This document shows, piece after piece, positions 58,517-64,000 of a stretch of DNA of 64,000 nt (position 1 is the first letter of the stretch; every line of letters starts with the position of its first letter). The position numbers were made by a program, and so were the translations under genes. A model generated the notes under the pieces. That model did no database searches, was not told the DNA's origin, and worked only from the letters and a program-made list of their open reading frames with translations. The DNA comes from Emticicia aquatica (GTDB lineage: Bacteria; Bacteroidota; Bacteroidia; Cytophagales; Spirosomataceae), in assembly GCF_923079645.1 (NCBI RefSeq), contig NZ_CAKLPY010000003.1:124001-188000 (forward strand), in the 5' to 3' direction.

Positions 58517-58591
58517 GTTCCCGTAGTTCAATGGATAGAATTTTAGATTCCGGTTCTGACGATGGGGGTTCGAATCCCTTCGGGAACACCA
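58517..58591 (+). tRNA. tRNA-Arg (anticodon CCG)
   Basis: A complete cloverleaf was read: acceptor stem GTTCCCG / CGGGAAC, D-arm GTTC-AATGGATA-GAAT, anticodon stem TTAGA / TCTGA with loop TTCCGGT (anticodon CCG), T-arm GGGGG-TTCGAAT-CCCTT, discriminator A and an encoded CCA end (58589-58591). It is a normal 72-nt tRNA plus CCA. Its 3' end is the probable integration site of the element that fills the rest of the window. Confidence 0.96.
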
Positions 58592-58614
58592 CTAAATACT
58601 TATTTTTTAGTTTA

Positions 58615-58646
58615 AATGCCTGATAGTCAATATGTTATCAGGCATT
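58615..58646 (+). terminator. terminator downstream of tRNA-Arg
   Basis: A perfect 11-bp stem (58615-58625 / 58636-58646) with a 10-nt loop, followed by TTTGTTTATT, 24 bp after the tRNA. Confidence 0.75.
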
Positions 58647-58665
58647 TTTGTTTATTGATTTAGAC

Positions 58666-58686
58666 TAGGGGTCGGATTAGGGGTCG
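58666..58686. repeat. two direct copies of TAGGGGTCG, 12-bp period
   Basis: TAGGGGTCG at 58666-58674 and 58678-58686, spaced one helical turn apart, 75 bp past the tRNA. The position and phasing suit arm-type binding sites of an integrase or excisionase. Confidence 0.55.
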
Positions 58687-58826
58687 TTATGTGTAATTTG
58701 TGAATAAAACTTTTACTTTCTGAAAAATATTTTTGTAGTTCTTTATAAATAAAAGAACACTATTATTAAAAATATAATATCTAAAACGAGTTCGATTATT
58801 TCATATTTTTTAATTTTCATTTTTTG

Positions 58827-58848
58827 GTAAAGTTTTAGTAAGATTTTA
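58827..58848. repeat. two 11-bp repeats, inverted copies of the rep-upstream repeats
   Basis: GTAAAGTTTTA at 58827-58837 and GTAAGATTTTA at 58838-58848. The second contains GTAAGATTTT, the exact reverse complement of the third 10-bp repeat upstream of rep (60670-60679); the first differs from the reverse complement of the other two by one base. Confidence 0.6.
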
Positions 58849-58854
58849 GTTATT

Positions 58855-59280
58855 TTATTCATCTAAATTCATGTTAAAGAAACCATTTTCATTTACTCCA
58901 AACTCCCAAACACTTTTGTTTTTTCCAAACTCAAAATTCTTATTAACCAAAGATTTTATTCTTTCATCGTTAGCAATACTCATTTTCAATAAAGTTTCAG
59001 TATTTACTGTTGTCAAATCTCTTTTGGCTAATTCGTCTTTAATTCGTTGGGATAACTCTAAATAACCGTTCAATCTGTTTTGTAAATCAAAACCAAAGGA
59101 TTTTACAATGCTGTTGGTTTTGAGCGTTTTACCTTCTTGCACTGCATTTCTTGTTTTTACTTCTTTATTCCATTCGAGTAATGTTTGTTTTGAAGTGTGC
59201 AGCTCTTTTGCTATGAAGTCAAAACTTTTGCCCTCTATTCTTAATTCAATGAATTTTTCAATTTGGTTTTCCTGTTTCAT
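58855..59280 (-). CDS. small HTH-like protein of the mobile element
   Basis: A 141-residue soluble protein. The N-terminal ~45 residues form a likely homeodomain-type helix-turn-helix (IELRIEGKSFDFIAKELHTSKQTLLEWNKE), as in terminase small subunits or transposase-like HTH_23 proteins. The remainder is helical (LNGYLELSQRIKDELAKRDL, LLKMSIANDERIKSLVN). It starts 13 bp after the rep stop and is probably translated from the same transcript. Role unclear. Confidence 0.6.
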   Translation of the reverse strand: MKQENQIEKFIELRIEGKSFDFIAKELHTSKQTLLEWNKEVKTRNAVQEGKTLKTNSIVKSFGFDLQNRLNGYLELSQRIKDELAKRDLTTVNTETLLKMSIANDERIKSLVNKNFEFGKNKSVWEFGVNENGFFNMNLDE

Positions 59281-59293
59281 TTTTTGTTAATTT

Positions 59294-60556
59294 TTATTGA
59301 AAAATACTAAACCCCGTTTCACTCCAAAAACTCAAAACTTTCTTTTGGTCTTCATTTAGTACTACAAAGTCAATAGTAAACAATGAAGGTTTATTTTTCA
59401 ATATTTTACGCCTTAGATTATTACGGGGGTTGCTCTCATCGTTGCGGAGGTTATGAGAAACAAAGTAAGATTCGTTTTTGGTAGTTCGTCTTTTGTTCTT
59501 TCTTCGTGTAGCCGACAACTCATTTATAAGTTCGGGGTTTTGTTCAATGGTTTTTTCTGATAGGAATTTAGACCCCCGTCTTTGTTGATTAATTAGGTGT
59601 CCGAAACTTACATTATACTTAAAATGTAAATCTCGGACATTTGCCTTTTTTACGGTCGTTATTTCCTCCTCCGAAACTTGGTAAATTTCGGACAACACAA
59701 AACACTTAAATTCTATTCTATCAGAAACAATCTTTACGAAGTTTTCGCCCGTTCGGTATTTATCTAAAACCTTCAAAAAACTTTCTTTCAATCTTTGGAG
59801 TTCTTTTTGTTGGTTTGCGGTTCGGTTGTCAGTTATCCAAGTTTTAGGGTTTTGCCCTCGGAGGTAAATATCTCGTTCGGTGGCGTTCAAATCTTTGAGG
59901 TTTATACTTTCCTCATCGAAGAGTATCTCATCAAAATACGCCTTCAATACGCCCCCAAACTTTGCATAAATACCGTCATTGAGTAGGTCAGCTAAAACAG
60001 ATACCTCTATGCCTTTGGTCTTAAAAAACTGCATTTTCAAAACCTTCAATTCAAATCTCAAAATATTGGCTACTTGGTGGTATTGTAAACCCTTATCATA
60101 AATTTTAATTATAAACTGACTCCGTTTGCATTGATAATAAATTTTACCCTCTTCAATCTCTCTCGTAAATGGCTCGCCCTTGTGTGTTATTAGGCTGTTT
60201 AATAATATCTTTGGCTCGAATGGTAAAACTACATTAACGCCAAATTCTAAGTTATTTAAACGGCTGTTTTGGAGGTCAATTTCAAACTTTTTCGATAACT
60301 CATTGATAACCTCATGCACTTGTGTTTTCGTAAAATCGTTATGATTATGCAACCCGTTGTTTTCGTATTTATGGATACTGCCAGTTAGACGAACGTTTGT
60401 GTTTTTTATTGAGAAAGTAAGACCAAAATAGTTTGTTTGCTGTGTCAGTACTTCACCGTTTTTGCTGCCAATTATCCAACCATCTTGTAAATATTTGTTA
60501 TTCTCTAAATCGGTGGAGGAAACCGCCAAATTTAGAATTTTAATATAGTCTATCAT
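59294..60556 (-). CDS. phage/plasmid-type replication initiation protein (Rep)
   Basis: A 420-residue protein. Segments in order: GSIHKYENNG (59-68), LNNLEFGVNVVLPF (about 100-113), then QFIIKIYDKGLQY (148-159) and ILRFELKVLK (165-174). This matches the pattern of rolling-circle-type Rep proteins (phage CRI/Rep_trans group), in which an initiator with K-x-Y-D-K and R-x-E motifs nicks the origin. The C-terminal ~170 residues are basic and end in ENPRNNLRRKILKN-like segments. A hairpin and three iteron-like repeats lie just upstream (60613-60679). A conjugative or filamentous-phage relative is possible. Confidence 0.6.
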   Translation of the reverse strand: MIDYIKILNLAVSSTDLENNKYLQDGWIIGSKNGEVLTQQTNYFGLTFSIKNTNVRLTGSIHKYENNGLHNHNDFTKTQVHEVINELSKKFEIDLQNSRLNNLEFGVNVVLPFEPKILLNSLITHKGEPFTREIEEGKIYYQCKRSQFIIKIYDKGLQYHQVANILRFELKVLKMQFFKTKGIEVSVLADLLNDGIYAKFGGVLKAYFDEILFDEESINLKDLNATERDIYLRGQNPKTWITDNRTANQQKELQRLKESFLKVLDKYRTGENFVKIVSDRIEFKCFVLSEIYQVSEEEITTVKKANVRDLHFKYNVSFGHLINQQRRGSKFLSEKTIEQNPELINELSATRRKNKRRTTKNESYFVSHNLRNDESNPRNNLRRKILKNKPSLFTIDFVVLNEDQKKVLSFWSETGFSIFQ

Positions 60557-60573
60557 TATTTTTGTTATTTTTG
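60557..60573 (+). promoter_or_regulatory. two TATTTTTG motifs antisense to the rep start
   Basis: TATTTTTG occurs at 60557-60564 and 60566-60573 on the plus strand; both fit TAnnTTTG exactly. No spaced -33 TTG was seen. Read on the minus strand the same bases give the A-rich leader right before the rep ATG, which is the simpler explanation; an antisense promoter is only possible. Confidence 0.3.
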
Positions 60574-60612
60574 TGTATTAATCAAATCGCCTTTGGCTGT
60601 TTGGTTTGGTCA

Positions 60613-60643
60613 GGGGTGCGGGTGGTTCTGCACCCCCTTTTTT
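60613..60643 (+). terminator. GC-rich hairpin with T6 on the plus strand, upstream of rep
   Basis: GGGGTGC (60613-60619) pairs with GCACCCC (60630-60636), extended inside by a G-T and a G-C pair to about nine pairs with loop GTGGTT. It is followed on the plus strand by CTTTTTT. All genes around are on the minus strand, so as a terminator it would end an antisense RNA. It may instead be a replication-origin hairpin. Confidence 0.6.
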
Positions 60644-60679
60644 ATGACCAAAACCTTACAAAACCTTACAAAATCTTAC
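60613..60679. other. candidate replication origin (hairpin plus three iterons)
   Basis: The GC hairpin at 60613-60636 is followed 13 bp later by AAAACCTTAC (60650-60659), AAAACCTTAC (60660-60669) and AAAATCTTAC (60670-60679), three direct repeats with a 10-bp period. They lie in the 167-bp gap directly upstream of rep. Rolling-circle origins typically have a nick-site hairpin beside a Rep-binding repeat region. The assignment is by pattern and position. Confidence 0.5.
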
Positions 60680-60723
60680 TTTTTGCTCGTTTAAAAGTTT
60701 CAAAACTTCATAAATATTAACAT

Positions 60724-61125
60724 TTACATAAATTTTTTTAGTTCTTCTACAATTTGTGAAGTTGTTAAATACGCCCGATTTGTCCATGTAAGAGTTAACT
60801 CTTGGTTATCGCTCGAAACTTCGGCAACTATCAGCATACGCCATTTTTTACCCTTAATTTGTACCTCTTTGTTTCCGTAAAATTTACGGTCGTGTAAATG
60901 CCTTAAACCTGTAAAGAAAGTATAATTGCCCCCTTTGATTCGCCCCCGTAGTACCTCTTTTGCTCCGTTTAAGATGAGGTCGGGGCGTTGCGTTGGTTCG
61001 ATTTTCAACTCTTTTGGGAGTTTATTAAACCCGATCGGACATTCAATTAATTGATAGTAGCCGTTTTCTTGGAGTTCGTACTTCAATACTTTTTGCTCGG
61101 TGCTGGTTGGTTTGGTCGCTGTCAT
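60724..61125 (-). CDS. hypothetical protein of the mobile element
   Basis: A 133-residue soluble protein with alternating beta strands (KYELQENGYYQLIECP, GGNYTFFTGLRHLHD, EVQIKGKKWRMLIVAEVSSD, LTLTWTNRAYLTTSQIVEELKKF). The start codon overlaps the stop of the HTH gene (ATGA), so translation is coupled. It sits between the excisionase-like gene and rep, where small single-stranded-DNA-binding proteins can be found in related elements, but no such family was recognised. Confidence 0.6.
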   Translation of the reverse strand: MTATKPTSTEQKVLKYELQENGYYQLIECPIGFNKLPKELKIEPTQRPDLILNGAKEVLRGRIKGGNYTFFTGLRHLHDRKFYGNKEVQIKGKKWRMLIVAEVSSDNQELTLTWTNRAYLTTSQIVEELKKFM

Positions 61126-61442
61126 TTTGATTCGCCCCTCCCTGTGCGTTTGTAGCGTAAATTGCGTACCTCTTTTAGGGCGTTCAAAACGTCTGATTTT
61201 TTGTAGCGAACACGGGTGCCAATCTTGATGGTAGGTAATACACCCGATTTACTCCACTGATTGAGCGAAACTAGCGAAATTTGTAAAATCTCGGAGGTCT
61301 GTTTGCGGGTAGGTAATTCGGGGATATTTGCCCCAAAGTCAGCGGGTGGAGGCGTCCACGCCTGAAGGACTGATTGCATTTCTGCACGTACCAATGCCGC
61401 CAATTCTGTTGGGGTCAATGGTGAAAGAATGAGTTGGTTCAT
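61122..61442 (-). CDS. excisionase-like helix-turn-helix protein
   Basis: A 106-residue protein with a MerR/Xis-type winged helix in its middle (LPTRKQTSEILQISLVSLNQW, VLPTIKIGTRVRYKKSDVLNAL), the form of the Bacteroidota HTH_17 family, which includes excisionases (Xis) of mobile elements. The N-terminal ~40 residues are extra. Its overlap with the next gene and place in the element suggest a role in excision or regulation. A neighbouring tyrosine integrase would be expected further right. Confidence 0.75.
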   Translation of the reverse strand: MNQLILSPLTPTELAALVRAEMQSVLQAWTPPPADFGANIPELPTRKQTSEILQISLVSLNQWSKSGVLPTIKIGTRVRYKKSDVLNALKEVRNLRYKRTGRGESK

Positions 61443-61565
61443 GTCGTTTTTATTTAGTTAAAAATTTGACGACACAAATGAATATAAAAAAAAATCGCTC
61501 CGAAAAGAACGATTAAGGTAATAAATTCAACTTGAATACAACTTGAATGAAATATTTGCTAAACT

Positions 61566-63071
61566 TTACTCTTTTAGATAGTCATCAAAAAAATCTGCTA
61601 ATTTTCGGGTAAATGTTTTTGAATCTTCTCTACGTTTAAAAGTCTTTTTACTATTTGATAACAAACTTTGGTCAGTAATTTTTATACCAAATTGTTCAGT
61701 AAAATACTTTAAAAGTTCTTCTTTGGATGCTGGTTTTCCTGTGGAGATTGATTTAATTCTTTCAGTTTTTGCAAGTGCATAAACAAGTTCGGCTAAATCT
61801 GTTTTAGAATCGCTCCAAGTAAATTGTTTTAATAGATTGTCATTTTTTGTAATTGATTGATTTATAGAGGTTACATATTTTTGGTAAATATTTTTAATGT
61901 TTTTGTATAAATCAACATATAGCTGCAATCGTGAAAACCAAAAATTAAAATATTTTTCAAATTTTTCTTCATTTTCACTTTTATCGTTTAAATCAAATTC
62001 GCCCGTATATCTTAAAAAACCTTCACTAATTTCATAATTGAATCCATCTTTTAAAAATTCTTTACTATCATTATAACTTTCGGAATTATATCTTAATTCG
62101 TCAAACTCTTTAAGTATTTCAGTATCTATTTTGTCAAAGTCAAATTGTAACTTGTTTTTTAAAAACAAATAGTATTGCTCAATTTTTACTTTATCTAAAT
62201 CATAAATATTTAAAAGTATTTCTTCTTCTAATTGCAAATGTAAACGCTCATTATAGGCATACTCTTTTTTCTCACCATTGACTGTAAACTTAACCTCATA
62301 GCTATTTTTTTCTACAATGTTATACAACGTTCTAAAAACTACAAAGTTTCGGGGTTCATAAAGATTTCTGAGTTCTTTAAAAAAATACTCAATGTGATAA
62401 ATACTATCCTGTTTATATGGAAATGATGTTTCTGATGTTTTTTCTTTTTTTGAAATAGGAGTTGCAGATATTACATATATTTTATAGATTTCTTCAATTC
62501 GTTTAAATAAATCAAAATGTTTTATTAACAAGGATTCCCATTCTTTAAAATAATTTTCAAATACGCCTTGAAAGAAGGCACGTTCTTCATCATTTAATTG
62601 TCTTTCATAAGAGTCTTTTTCGGCGTCAACCTTTTTCCTAAGTAAAGTCTCTTTCTTGAAAAAACGATTTTGCTCTAATAATAAAAAATCTAACCATAAT
62701 TCCCTTCTAAGTTTATCTACAAATTCAAACTTGTCGAAATCATTGATAATCAATCTTATTGGCTCAATATACTTTTTTAATTGAGTATTCAAGAATTGAT
62801 AGTAATAGGTTCTTTTATGCTCAAAAAAATCAAAAGAGGCTATATTTTCTAAAATTTCAGATTCAAATTTTATATCTAAATTAATTATGAAAGAACTTAT
62901 TAAATTTCTTTCATTCTCATCTGTACTTACATAGTGTTTAGATTTTGTTACAATCAAAAAGAGTTCTTTGAAACTTTTATTGGTATTTGGTTTAAGTAGA
63001 TTAGTAGTTTCTGTAAGAAAGTTAACTACCTGAAAAGTTTTATCAATTTTGAGTTGATTTAATAAATTCAT
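61566..63071 (-). CDS. large helical protein with RteC-like C-terminal domain
   Basis: A 501-residue soluble protein rich in Lys, Glu, Asn, Phe and Tyr. The first ~410 residues are helical (segments QLNDEERAFFQGVFENYFKEWE; YFNFWFSRLQLYVDLYKNI). The last 85 residues (417-501) have W419-S-D-S-K-T-D-L-A-E-L-V-Y-A-L, then SKEELLKYFTEQFGI and SKTFTRKLADFFDDYL, the layout of the RteC family. RteC regulates excision of the Bacteroides element CTnDOT. Known RteC proteins are about 217 aa, so this is a long variant. It precedes the excisionase-like gene, as in RteC-xis circuits. Confidence 0.65.
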   Translation of the reverse strand: MNLLNQLKIDKTFQVVNFLTETTNLLKPNTNKSFKELFLIVTKSKHYVSTDENERNLISSFIINLDIKFESEILENIASFDFFEHKRTYYYQFLNTQLKKYIEPIRLIINDFDKFEFVDKLRRELWLDFLLLEQNRFFKKETLLRKKVDAEKDSYERQLNDEERAFFQGVFENYFKEWESLLIKHFDLFKRIEEIYKIYVISATPISKKEKTSETSFPYKQDSIYHIEYFFKELRNLYEPRNFVVFRTLYNIVEKNSYEVKFTVNGEKKEYAYNERLHLQLEEEILLNIYDLDKVKIEQYYLFLKNKLQFDFDKIDTEILKEFDELRYNSESYNDSKEFLKDGFNYEISEGFLRYTGEFDLNDKSENEEKFEKYFNFWFSRLQLYVDLYKNIKNIYQKYVTSINQSITKNDNLLKQFTWSDSKTDLAELVYALAKTERIKSISTGKPASKEELLKYFTEQFGIKITDQSLLSNSKKTFKRREDSKTFTRKLADFFDDYLKE

Positions 63072-63151
63072 TTTGGTTTGGTCGATTTAGAATGAATGAA
63101 GGTGGTTTAGTTCTTCAATGTTTTTTATTGAAAATTTATCATTAATTATTC

Positions 63152-63179
63152 ATTTTGTAGTAATGATTTATTACAAAAT
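63152..63179. promoter_or_regulatory. inverted repeat upstream of the RteC-like gene
   Basis: ATTTTGTAGTAA (63152-63163) and TTATTACAAAAT (63168-63179) form an imperfect palindrome, 11 of 12 pairs with a 4-bp spacer, about 81 bp before the RteC-like start codon. It may be an operator or promoter site. Confidence 0.45.
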
Positions 63180-63270
63180 AATTTTAAAAATTTGTAACCC
63201 TCTCGGCTACTAATAAAAGGTATCTATTTATGTGTTTGGGGGTATCCGAACGGTATTGGTTGGGTTTTTA

Positions 63271-63513
63271 CTATCCTGTATTTTTCAAAGTAGATAAGTG
63301 TACTGATAAACCCATTATTTGCATCAGTTTGTTAAGTTCTACTTTATATCCTTCAAAAAGTTCTTCGTACTGTTTTATGTAAAGTAGCGAGTCGTTCCCC
63401 TCTTTGTGTATCTGAATAGTGCGGTTGGTCATGGCAATTAGTTCCATAAGTCTCGAAACGCTAATGCTCCATTGGTAGTAACTTAAAAATTCTTTTTCTT
63501 CCATCGCAGCCAA
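63271..63513 (-). CDS. small helical protein, paralogue of the next gene
   Basis: An 80-residue soluble protein, helical (SRLMELIAMTNRTIQIHKEG, YEELFEGYKVELNKLMQIMGLSVHL). It is similar along its length to the product of the gene at 63525: RLxELI, T-x-x-I-x-x-H, Q-Y, EL-x-KL and G-x-x-x-x-L are shared at the same spacing. The two are tandem copies from a duplication, 11 bp apart. No function recognised. Confidence 0.6.
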   Translation of the reverse strand: MAAMEEKEFLSYYQWSISVSRLMELIAMTNRTIQIHKEGNDSLLYIKQYEELFEGYKVELNKLMQIMGLSVHLSTLKNTG

Positions 63514-63524
63514 ATTTAATGTTA

Positions 63525-63767
63525 TTAGGCAACTTTATTCGCCTTTGTTTTTGGTAATCTTAGCGTAAAACCATAGGGTTTCAACAATTTTCCTAATTCG
63601 GCACGGTGTTCGGCTAGTAAATCGGTGTATTGGTTGACTGCCAAAAAACTTGGTTTTTCTTGGCTCTGATGTAGTTTTAGAATATTTTCGGTACTCTCAA
63701 TCAATTCAAGTAAACGGGCAATTCTTATACCCCTTTCCTCCACGTTTTTAGGTCTTTCCATTGTCAT
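63525..63767 (-). CDS. small helical protein, paralogue of the previous gene
   Basis: An 80-residue soluble protein (ERGIRIARLLELIESTENILKLHQ, QYTDLLAEHRAELGKLLKPYGFTLRL). It starts in a TAATG overlap with the gene on its right, so translation is coupled. A second ATG two codons in (63761) is equally possible. It is a tandem paralogue of the gene at 63271. Confidence 0.6.
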   Translation of the reverse strand: MTMERPKNVEERGIRIARLLELIESTENILKLHQSQEKPSFLAVNQYTDLLAEHRAELGKLLKPYGFTLRLPKTKANKVA

Positions 63768-64000
63768 TAAGAGTTTATCTGTAAAATCCCTTTGTTTTTT
63801 GTGAGTCTATCTGTACTAAACTGAAATAACCATTTTTTACATTCTATTTCGTAAATACTGCCCAAAGGATGCTCTTTTGGGTAAATAGCAACAAAATAAC
63901 CATCAACTAAACTACCACGTTTTGAGCGTTCGGCACGTAGTTTATCAATTTCAAGTTCTTTGGCATTATATTGCTCAAAATCAATAAAAGTTACCAAATC
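63767..64000 (-). CDS. hypothetical protein, 5' part outside window
   Basis: The frame is open to the window edge; the first possible start inside is TTG at 63997, but the codon before it (GAT) is in frame, so the real start is probably further right. The visible product is about 77 residues (FIDFEQYNAKELEIDKLRAER; EHPLGSIYEIECKKWLFQFS). The stop overlaps the next start (TAATG). Helical then beta; no family recognised. Confidence 0.5.
   Translation of the reverse strand, partial: DLVTFIDFEQYNAKELEIDKLRAERSKRGSLVDGYFVAIYPKEHPLGSIYEIECKKWLFQFSTDRLTKNKGILQINS

Follow-up and report, generated by a model that had tools for sequence, protein, structure and literature searches.

Introduction

Which kind of mobile element has been inserted at a tRNA-Arg(CCG) gene of Emticicia aquatica is the question raised by the right-hand end of the window (the whole 64,000-nucleotide stretch of DNA analysed). 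The initial annotation proposed an integrated element with Rep, Xis-like and RteC-like genes, which was right (the RteC-like gene being recognised indirectly), and left its kind between a plasmid, a phage-like satellite and an integrative and conjugative element (ICE). None of the nine ORFs in the 7.2-kb element matches a transfer gene, as an ICE would require, and the gene content of relatives favours a satellite-like family, short of proof. The element belongs to a widespread family whose members often carry a virus-type DNA-packaging gene; it may therefore spread by hitchhiking in virus particles.

Results

Insertion Site and Limits of the Element

The region had been read as a complete tRNA gene followed by minus-strand mobile-element genes, a reading borne out by ARAGORN and by the ORFs, which occupy 58855–64000 on the minus strand:

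58517–58591, plus strand: tRNA-Arg(CCG), integration target (ARAGORN)
58575–58589, no strand: att copy inside the tRNA-Arg 3′ end (exact 15-bp match to L003:7783–7797)
58575–64000, minus strand: integrated element, window part (15-bp repeat, integrase domains, element-free site in congeners)
58855–59280, minus strand: o141, HTH and long-helix protein in the slot of relatives' small terminases (PHROG, homologues, model)
59294–60556, minus strand: Rep, predicted rolling-circle initiator fold (AlphaFold2 and Foldseek)
60605–60679, no strand: candidate origin upstream of the Rep gene, with a two-step hairpin (60605–60652) and three 10-bp repeats (60650–60679)
60724–61125, minus strand: o133, family-wide protein (relatives in 44 of 89 loci, genome loci being the best 80 of 117)
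61122–61442, minus strand: HTH_17 protein, probable excisionase/regulator (Pfam HTH_17, E 7.9e-8, above cut-off)
61566–63071, minus strand: RteC-like protein, C-terminal domain recognised by homologue (homologue match, iterated profile)
63271–63513, minus strand: 80-aa paralogue a, cargo (ORF; shared profile; homologue in relic L174)
63525–63767, minus strand: 80-aa paralogue b, cargo (ORF; shared profile)
63767–64000, minus strand: DUF6932 gene, window part, the gene running to 64231 (Pfam DUF6932, E 8e-32)

Extension of the contig beyond the window, a check suggested by the initial annotation, located a full-length tyrosine integrase with integrase domains and motifs (window-equivalent 64243–65613) and an exact second copy of the tRNA 3′-end sequence (window-equivalent 65782–65796). 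The earlier remark that the window holds no integrase is literally true only in that this gene lies just past the edge, 243 bp beyond the end of the window. The 15-bp direct repeat is exact, and the second-longest exact match of the comparison measures 11 bp; the whole element runs from 58575 to window-equivalent 65796, with 7,207 bp between the 15-bp copies, and the window cuts it so that about three quarters lie inside the given coordinates. The other check, for an empty site in related genomes, gave four Emticicia congeners in which the tRNA-Arg is present and the element absent, and one congener holds a relic of it (L174). Absence of an integrase and repeat, with the genes fixed at this site, would have spoken against an integrated element; instead, both are present and the site is element-free in congeners. 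An integrase with defined ends and a specific att site is what is expected of a phage satellite.

Integrase, Regulators and Cargo Genes

In Bacteroides, integrative and mobilisable elements (IMEs) and conjugative transposons (CTns) such as NBU1 and CTnDOT carry a Phage_int_SAM_5-type integrase together with RteC-like and HTH_17 genes. The window element has all three, but, unlike those elements, no recognised mobilisation or transfer genes, and small terminases occur in its relatives. The resemblance of the RteC/HTH_17 genes to conjugative-transposon regulation is a point against a satellite.

The HTH_17/Xis-like protein of the initial annotation was recovered by Pfam as HTH_17, its excisionase likeness being weak; relatives occur in 82 of the 89 loci (genome loci the best 80 of 117). 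The RteC-like domain fared less well: the 501-aa protein itself has no RteC match at E ≤ 10, and the assignment stands only through its homologue L049:7553–8356 (39% identity over 85 aa), which matches Pfam RteC above cut-off (E 7.2e-7). An iterated profile recognised 17 of 60, versus 0 of 619 controls (genome loci again the best 80 of 117). The tandem small paralogues were upheld, as one profile recognises both 80-aa ORFs. The DUF6932 gene, which matches PADLOC PDC-M63A (E 2e-19), is by sequence a candidate defence cargo. Protein o133 gave no match in Pfam or PHROG.

These regulators bear on the main alternative, which we regard as rather unlikely: an integrative and mobilisable element, in which the Rep_trans-fold protein would be a MOBT-like relaxase with an oriT near its gene, a conjugative helper would supply the channel, and the RteC- and Xis-like genes would respond to that helper. 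Regulation of CTnDOT excision by RteC, as stated in the cited portion of PMC10865816, favours it, as does the relationship of MOBT relaxases to Rep_trans initiators in the excerpted account of PMC11389934. The element's proteins match no known relaxase domain, although a predicted Rep_trans fold can, according to the same excerpt (PMC11389934), belong to MOBT; against a mobilisable element, the host genome has no PF03432 relaxase, in a search that covers neither MOBT nor outside helpers. Two other comparisons were set aside: the plasmid-like form of CTn214, in the relevant part of PMC10865816, is a segment, 17 kb long, of a conjugative transposon, and Charybdis elements, as portrayed in the cited part of PMC12324425, have other genes and other hosts.

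Rep and the Candidate Origin

Both motifs reported earlier for Rep, KIYDK and LRFE, are present in the 59294–60556 ORF. Its sequence gives no meaningful match in Pfam, PHROG or NCBIfam and none in a PDB sequence-profile search; there is no Pfam Rep_trans match at E ≤ 1, so it falls outside the curated pT181-type sequence family. The AlphaFold2 model (pLDDT 88.8), which has an extra C-terminal region, matches 4cij, 4cwe and 4cwc in Foldseek (E 1.2e-5 to 9.4e-5), and all six matches at E ≤ 0.001 are pT181-type rolling-circle initiators. Rep is thus predicted to share their fold, remotely (9–13% identity; TM by query 0.33–0.37), and differs from them in sequence, in the lack of PDB and Pfam profile matches, and in the C-terminal region. 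A reading of Rep as a filamentous-phage protein was rejected, Pfam and PHROG being without match and the predicted fold matching plasmid initiators. Through Rep the element has its own replication gene, as satellites do, of neither the Pri-Rep nor the primase type.

Upstream of Rep, the DNA fold of 60557–60723 stands out (z −3.04; 0/200 shuffles), and the window copy did not pass a simple hairpin test (4/30). Across the family, 17 of 40 loci have a hairpin upstream of Rep that outscores 29 or all of 30 shuffles, versus about 2.6 expected, the loci being related to one another.

The predicted fold also suits an integrating plasmid-like element, with rolling-circle replication and an integrase alone, moved incidentally by transduction or transformation. 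Two circular relatives and core genes that account only for integration and replication agree with this explanation, which is nevertheless improbable: 72,556 plasmid records contain no Rep relative, and small-terminase-like genes of several families recur in one slot. Among 50,697 phage records, a Rep relative was found in one unannotated contig (MT835707).

Spread and Architecture of the Family

The initial annotation considered the gene mix unusual; the combination is not rare, since of 222 host-family genomes 52 contain a Rep relative. Relatives were compared in 89 loci; those from genomes number 80, the best of 117. With this sampling (best 80 of 117), all 67 of the 89 loci in which the three genes could be placed have the single order Int–HTH_17–Rep, order and compact size are kept across many genera, and tRNA-derived repeats delimit 36 loci (median 6.9 kb), counted without a shuffled control. 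Six of 42 loci (L062, L069, L086, L095, L111 and L127) do not enter the att count, since their repeats were short, fell outside the tRNA or flanked the integrase on the wrong side; in L111, whose repeat measures 45 bp, the reason was the 13.4-kb interval. Two relatives are circular by assembly.

Single phage structural genes occur in some relatives (L038 has a piece of a tape-measure gene, and in L089 a baseplate-hub protein is encoded behind Rep), as they would in decayed prophage fragments. Such an origin is very improbable given the one order and compact size kept across many genera, and given the full-length frames and exact att ends of the window copy.

The Gene Downstream of Rep

A small-terminase-like gene was found in 20 of the 89 loci (genome loci the best 80 of 117), each downstream of Rep and on the same strand, and several families share this slot. 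The GP3_package and Terminase_2 types are Pfam-supported (GP3_package matched 3 of 91 proteins, two of these identified), and the commonest type is DUF5681-like, among genome loci that are the best 80 of 117. In viral contigs, DUF5681-like genes adjoin large terminases: in 10 of 13 viral loci they lie directly upstream of a large-terminase-like gene, and seven of eight such neighbours tested exceed a Pfam cut-off. A DUF5681 protein is listed among virion proteins of a Salmonella phage in the cited part of PMC8954984, a listing compatible with a terminase role but no evidence for one. Of the 20 loci found by the small-terminase profiles, 17 had served to build them, the additions being L110, L133 and a second L083 copy; the profiles are informative because nothing else among the ORFs of the 89 loci matched. 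A weaker gene in L126 (PHROG, 6e-6), between integrase and HTH_17 rather than behind Rep, was not counted.

Both the recurrence of these genes behind Rep and their viral neighbourhoods argue against a mobilisable element, whereas the 69 of 89 loci with no recognised small terminase, the window copy included and some cut by contig ends (genome loci the best 80 of 117), agree with one and count against a satellite.

In the window copy the slot holds o141, which could not be established as a small terminase: PHROG terminase small subunit is matched only at E 0.038 (an unknown PHROG family at 6e-4), for the homologues in L040 and L140 all matches are to unrelated families, none of them a terminase family, a search for viral relatives found none, and the structure model is poor, with no fold match. 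A weak phage-record match, MT836588, was dropped because its neighbours look like flagellar genes.

Discussion

The small terminases, circular forms and compact size of the relatives favour a phage-satellite-like family, and we give somewhat better than even chances to the reading that the element is an integrative satellite, compact and without a capsid, that resembles phage-inducible chromosomal islands (PICI) or phage-inducible chromosomal minimalist islands (PICMI) and replicates by rolling circle. Its proteins have no match to capsid or large-terminase genes, as in satellites.

PICMI of Vibrionaceae, in the cited passages of PMC10803314, are likewise about 6–7 kb, with a tyrosine integrase, a small HTH excision/regulator gene, their own replication gene and no capsid genes, and PICMI115 lacks a terS homologue, like the window copy. 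They differ in having AlpA, a primase and a site beside fis, whereas here an RteC-like gene, a rolling-circle initiator fold and tRNA sites are found, with small terminases in part of the family; rolling-circle replication and concatemer packaging are reported for PICMI (PMC10803314) and proposed here from sequence alone. PICI, including those of Gram-negative bacteria, share specific att sites, an integrase, their own replicon, the lack of a capsid set and, in part of their members, a small terminase, as far as the excerpts of PMC6092414 describe them; their replicon is Pri-Rep-ori, and for the present family, with its Bacteroidota hosts, phage induction and packaging are proposals.

For the satellite we infer the following course. 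The tyrosine integrase would insert the element at the tRNA-Arg 3′ end; upon induction, integrase would release a circle with the help of an excisionase, the HTH_17 protein, RteC-like regulation governing the step. Rep would nick an origin, for which the hairpin and repeats ahead of rep are candidates, and the circle would be copied by rolling circle. In relatives, a small terminase encoded between Rep and the tRNA-side att would steer the product into helper-phage capsids, and the window copy may be packaged as well; the packaged product would probably be head-to-tail concatemers, a single copy of about 7 kb being far shorter than the usual phage genome. The cargo slot near the integrase, here with DUF6932 and two 80-aa proteins, would hold candidate anti-phage genes. 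Three large-terminase families searched in the host genome gave none, and by these searches there is no resident helper prophage. The fuller proposal, of a Bacteroidota satellite family with its own rolling-circle initiator, multimers, unrelated small terminases swapped per helper and anti-phage cargo, is possible, its chances falling a little below even.

Bacteroidota form a major phylum in soil, water and gut habitats, and the open-access literature, searched by title or abstract opening, yielded no description of phage satellites in them. If the proposal is true, such satellites would be common in Bacteroidota, as 52 of 222 genomes in one family carry Rep, and they would help to account for the movement of small defence cassettes from one of these bacteria to another. 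Replication would then rely on an encoded rolling-circle initiator, as against the Pri-Rep (PICI) or primase (PICMI) systems, and the type of terminase carried would predict the helper phage, making helper choice directly testable.

Element Boundaries and Insertion Site

The window (G000:C3:124001–188000, in a genome of 4.94 Mb and 25 contigs) holds a tRNA gene adjoining the genes of the element, and the description in the initial annotation of mobile-element genes that all turn to the minus strand beside a complete tRNA holds for all genes of 58855–64000.

58517–58591, tRNA-Arg(CCG)
58855–59280, minus strand, o141, between Rep and the tRNA-side end
59294–60556, minus strand, Rep
60724–61125, minus strand, o133, a family-wide protein
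61122–61442, minus strand, HTH_17 protein
61566–63071, minus strand, RteC-like protein

The element is cut by the window edge, and the contig was continued beyond it to read the remainder. The tyrosine integrase to be sought on the right is there, a 456-aa gene with Phage_int_SAM_5 (1.7e-10) and Phage_integrase (7e-10) matches, and beyond it lies the direct repeat to be sought, 15 bp identical to the 3′ end of the tRNA; the second-longest exact match in the same comparison (L003:480–900 vs. L003:6000–9000, on the window locus stretch) is 11 bp. Measured between the two repeats, the element is 7,207 bp long. Just inside its tRNA-side end, a terminator-like sequence (window 58613–58653) has 82–86% matches at C1:2242654 and C1:1675750.

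All 11 genomes of the genus, counting the window genome itself, contain a relative of the 171-aa gene left of the tRNA, and the stretch behind this gene was fetched from the ten others. tRNA-Arg(CCG) follows in five, and no tRNA was found in the other five stretches. Comparison of the site in related genomes, as proposed initially, yielded four congeners (L170–L173) that have the tRNA and no homologues of the element genes; in L171 and L172 the tRNA is followed by a 944-aa gene and then by the same DUF3419 gene as borders the element in the window genome.

Integrase and Cargo

The integrase carries R, HxxR, H and Y motifs, which we take to be those of an active enzyme. The cargo position, between the integrase and the RteC-like gene, is occupied by two 80-aa paralogues, matched by no PADLOC model, and a 154-aa DUF6932 gene completed beyond the window edge (Pfam 8e-32), whose product matches the PADLOC candidate defence family PDC-M63A (2e-19). 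Examples from relatives, picked by eye and giving no rate, include type III restriction-modification genes (L043), type IIG enzymes (L072 and L049, the ends of L049 not being mapped), a SIR2-type gene with a methyltransferase gene (L113) and a Fic protein (L114); in L043, L072, L113, and L114 the genes named sit inside mapped repeats. In the fifth congener with the tRNA, G101 (L174, 1286–1991), the only element genes beside tRNA-Arg are counterparts of one 80-aa protein (74%) and DUF6932 (66%), with neither integrase nor Rep; judged by its genes, this stretch seems to be the remnant of a similar element, its cargo left after element loss.

A Family with Conserved Gene Order

Of 222 genomes of the host family, 52 have a Rep relative, and congener G104 carries one. 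Scanning one genome per species yielded 117 relatives, from which the 80 best were retained, 78 of these labelled Bacteroidota and the other two (L087 and L100) Candidatus Dependentiae and Lokiarchaeota, labels that are probably binning errors. With 8 relatives from a scan of viral contigs and the window copy, the set comprises 89 loci, many truncated at contig ends or at the 10-kb flank; relatives of the integrase were found in 74, of HTH_17 in 82 and of o133 in 44. All 67 loci with both integrase and HTH_17 located upstream of Rep and on the same strand keep the order Int – HTH_17 – Rep, and in 60 of the 67 an ORF of 196–763 aa ends just before HTH_17. An RteC-like profile iterated from three members recognised 17 of these 60 ORFs vs. 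0 of 619 control ORFs; the window protein is named RteC-like because a homologue that resembles it, in L049, passes the Pfam RteC cut-off (7.2e-7).

In 42 loci a repeat that coincides with a tRNA 3′ end or adjoins one spans the gene set; six of these loci were dropped. In the 36 kept, the distance from one repeat to the other is 4.4 to 12.7 kb, with a median of 6,871 bp, and the tRNAs involved serve ten amino acids. The assemblies of two relatives close into circles: L087 has 4,601 bp with ends overlapping by 53 bp, and L138 has 4,972 bp with an overlap of 121 bp. The Rep gene of L138 spans the contig ends, and its two pieces, searched apart, match successive parts of the Rep profile. No circularity was seen in ten plus four other stretches, some of which do not reach both contig ends. 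Single phage structural genes lie near Rep in two loci: a tape-measure piece (L038:419–1864) and a baseplate-hub family protein (L089:11434–12012, PHROG 6e-16).

Rep and a Candidate Origin

Rep gave no meaningful match in Pfam, PHROG or NCBIfam and none in a PDB profile search. Its AlphaFold2 model (48-sequence alignment, pLDDT 88.8) retrieved with Foldseek six matches at E ≤ 0.001, all rolling-circle initiators from Geobacillus (4cij) or Staphylococcus (4cwe and 4cwc/RepDE) (E 1.2e-5 to 9.4e-5, probability 1.00, identity 9–13%), with TM of 0.48–0.52 by target but 0.33–0.37 by query. K, Y and K of the KIYDK motif are invariant across the 48 sequences, and by likeness to pT181-type enzymes the tyrosine may be the nicking residue. 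The interval from o133 to Rep contains a two-step hairpin and three 10-bp repeats, and its predicted fold surpasses that of all 200 shuffled versions (z −3.04). In a simpler test, a hairpin beats at least 29 of 30 shuffles in 17 of the 40 loci with such an interval (about 2.6 expected, the loci being related to each other); the window copy scores 4/30. The arrangement may be a replication origin; a terminator is also possible.

Small-Terminase-like Genes Downstream of Rep

In L034 (contig of L057) a P22-gp3-type small terminase lies between Rep and the adjacent tRNA (Pfam GP3_package 1.3e-14, PHROG terminase small subunit 5.2e-30), and the gene after Rep in L038 (contig of L055) encodes a Terminase_2 small subunit (8.7e-22). 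The largest downstream cluster is DUF5681-like (14 proteins, 13 loci); the libraries searched assign it no function, and Pfam DUF5681 itself is found in 5 of 91 downstream proteins. One member used as query retrieved 13 IMG/VR loci, in 10 of which a large-terminase-like gene comes next. Eight of these ten were tested (L149 and L153 were left out as apparent duplicates), and seven passed a Pfam large-terminase cut-off, L144 falling below it (19.9 vs. 22 bits). Because large-terminase-like genes adjoin them in viral contigs, DUF5681-like proteins are, by position, probably small terminases. The remaining three loci are L150, unclassed, and L146 and L147, which have no Rep match and carry an integrase and HTH_17 of the element's family with the DUF5681-like gene, L147 having a Terminase_2 gene in addition; the same chassis thus seems to exist with other replication modules.

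Altogether 20 of 89 loci have a small-terminase-like gene: 13 DUF5681-like, 3 Terminase_2, 2 GP3 and 2 HTH-type (L078, PHROG terminase small subunit 2.3e-11; L133, weak). All of them are found downstream of Rep, on the same strand and at most 1.5 kb away. The small-terminase profiles, which were largely built from those members, matched nothing else among the ORFs of the 89 loci. Nine DUF5681-like loci have mapped ends, and in all nine the element includes the gene.

In the window copy, itself a family member, this slot holds o141, an HTH plus long-helix protein with a weak PHROG terminase small subunit match (E 0.038); it matches a function-less family (6e-4), as does the terminase-like protein of L078. 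The o141 model is of low quality (pLDDT 55.7) and had no structural match at E ≤ 0.001. Neither the o141 homologue that follows Rep in Emticicia sp. C21 (L040/L066) nor the one in L140 matches a terminase family, which speaks against a terminase role and weakens the satellite reading. That the window copy gets packaged is a guess. In L140 (congener G105, 1366–2732) the gene next to the homologue, of 309 aa, is missed by the Rep profile, so o141 is not bound to a single Rep; L140 and L141 have the same small genes nearby.

Packaging or Conjugation

The rival reading, mobilisation by conjugation, has to be taken seriously: MOBT relaxases and Rep_trans initiators are relatives (PMC11389934), and RteC regulates CTnDOT excision (PMC10865816). 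Searches of the host genome for three large-terminase families and for PF03432 relaxases found none, so by these families neither kind of helper is resident.

Full-text searches of an open-access library, a scope outside which most subscription papers fall, listed no paper that by its title or abstract opening describes phage satellites of Bacteroidota; a 2024 review names P4-like, PICI, cfPICI, PLE, PICMI, marine and soil families (PMC11389934). PICMI115 of Vibrio is a 6.1-kb satellite reported to use rolling-circle replication, to be packaged as concatemers of eight copies and to have no terS homologue (PMC10803314); the element resembles it in size, gene set and absence of capsid genes. PICIs have a Pri-Rep-ori replicon, and part of the members carry terS (PMC6092414); their integrase – replicon – terS logic is common to the element's family, whereas the element's replicon is a predicted rolling-circle initiator. 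Such an initiator would produce multimers, and on balance we lean towards regarding the element as a compact PICI/PICMI-type phage satellite with rolling-circle replication.
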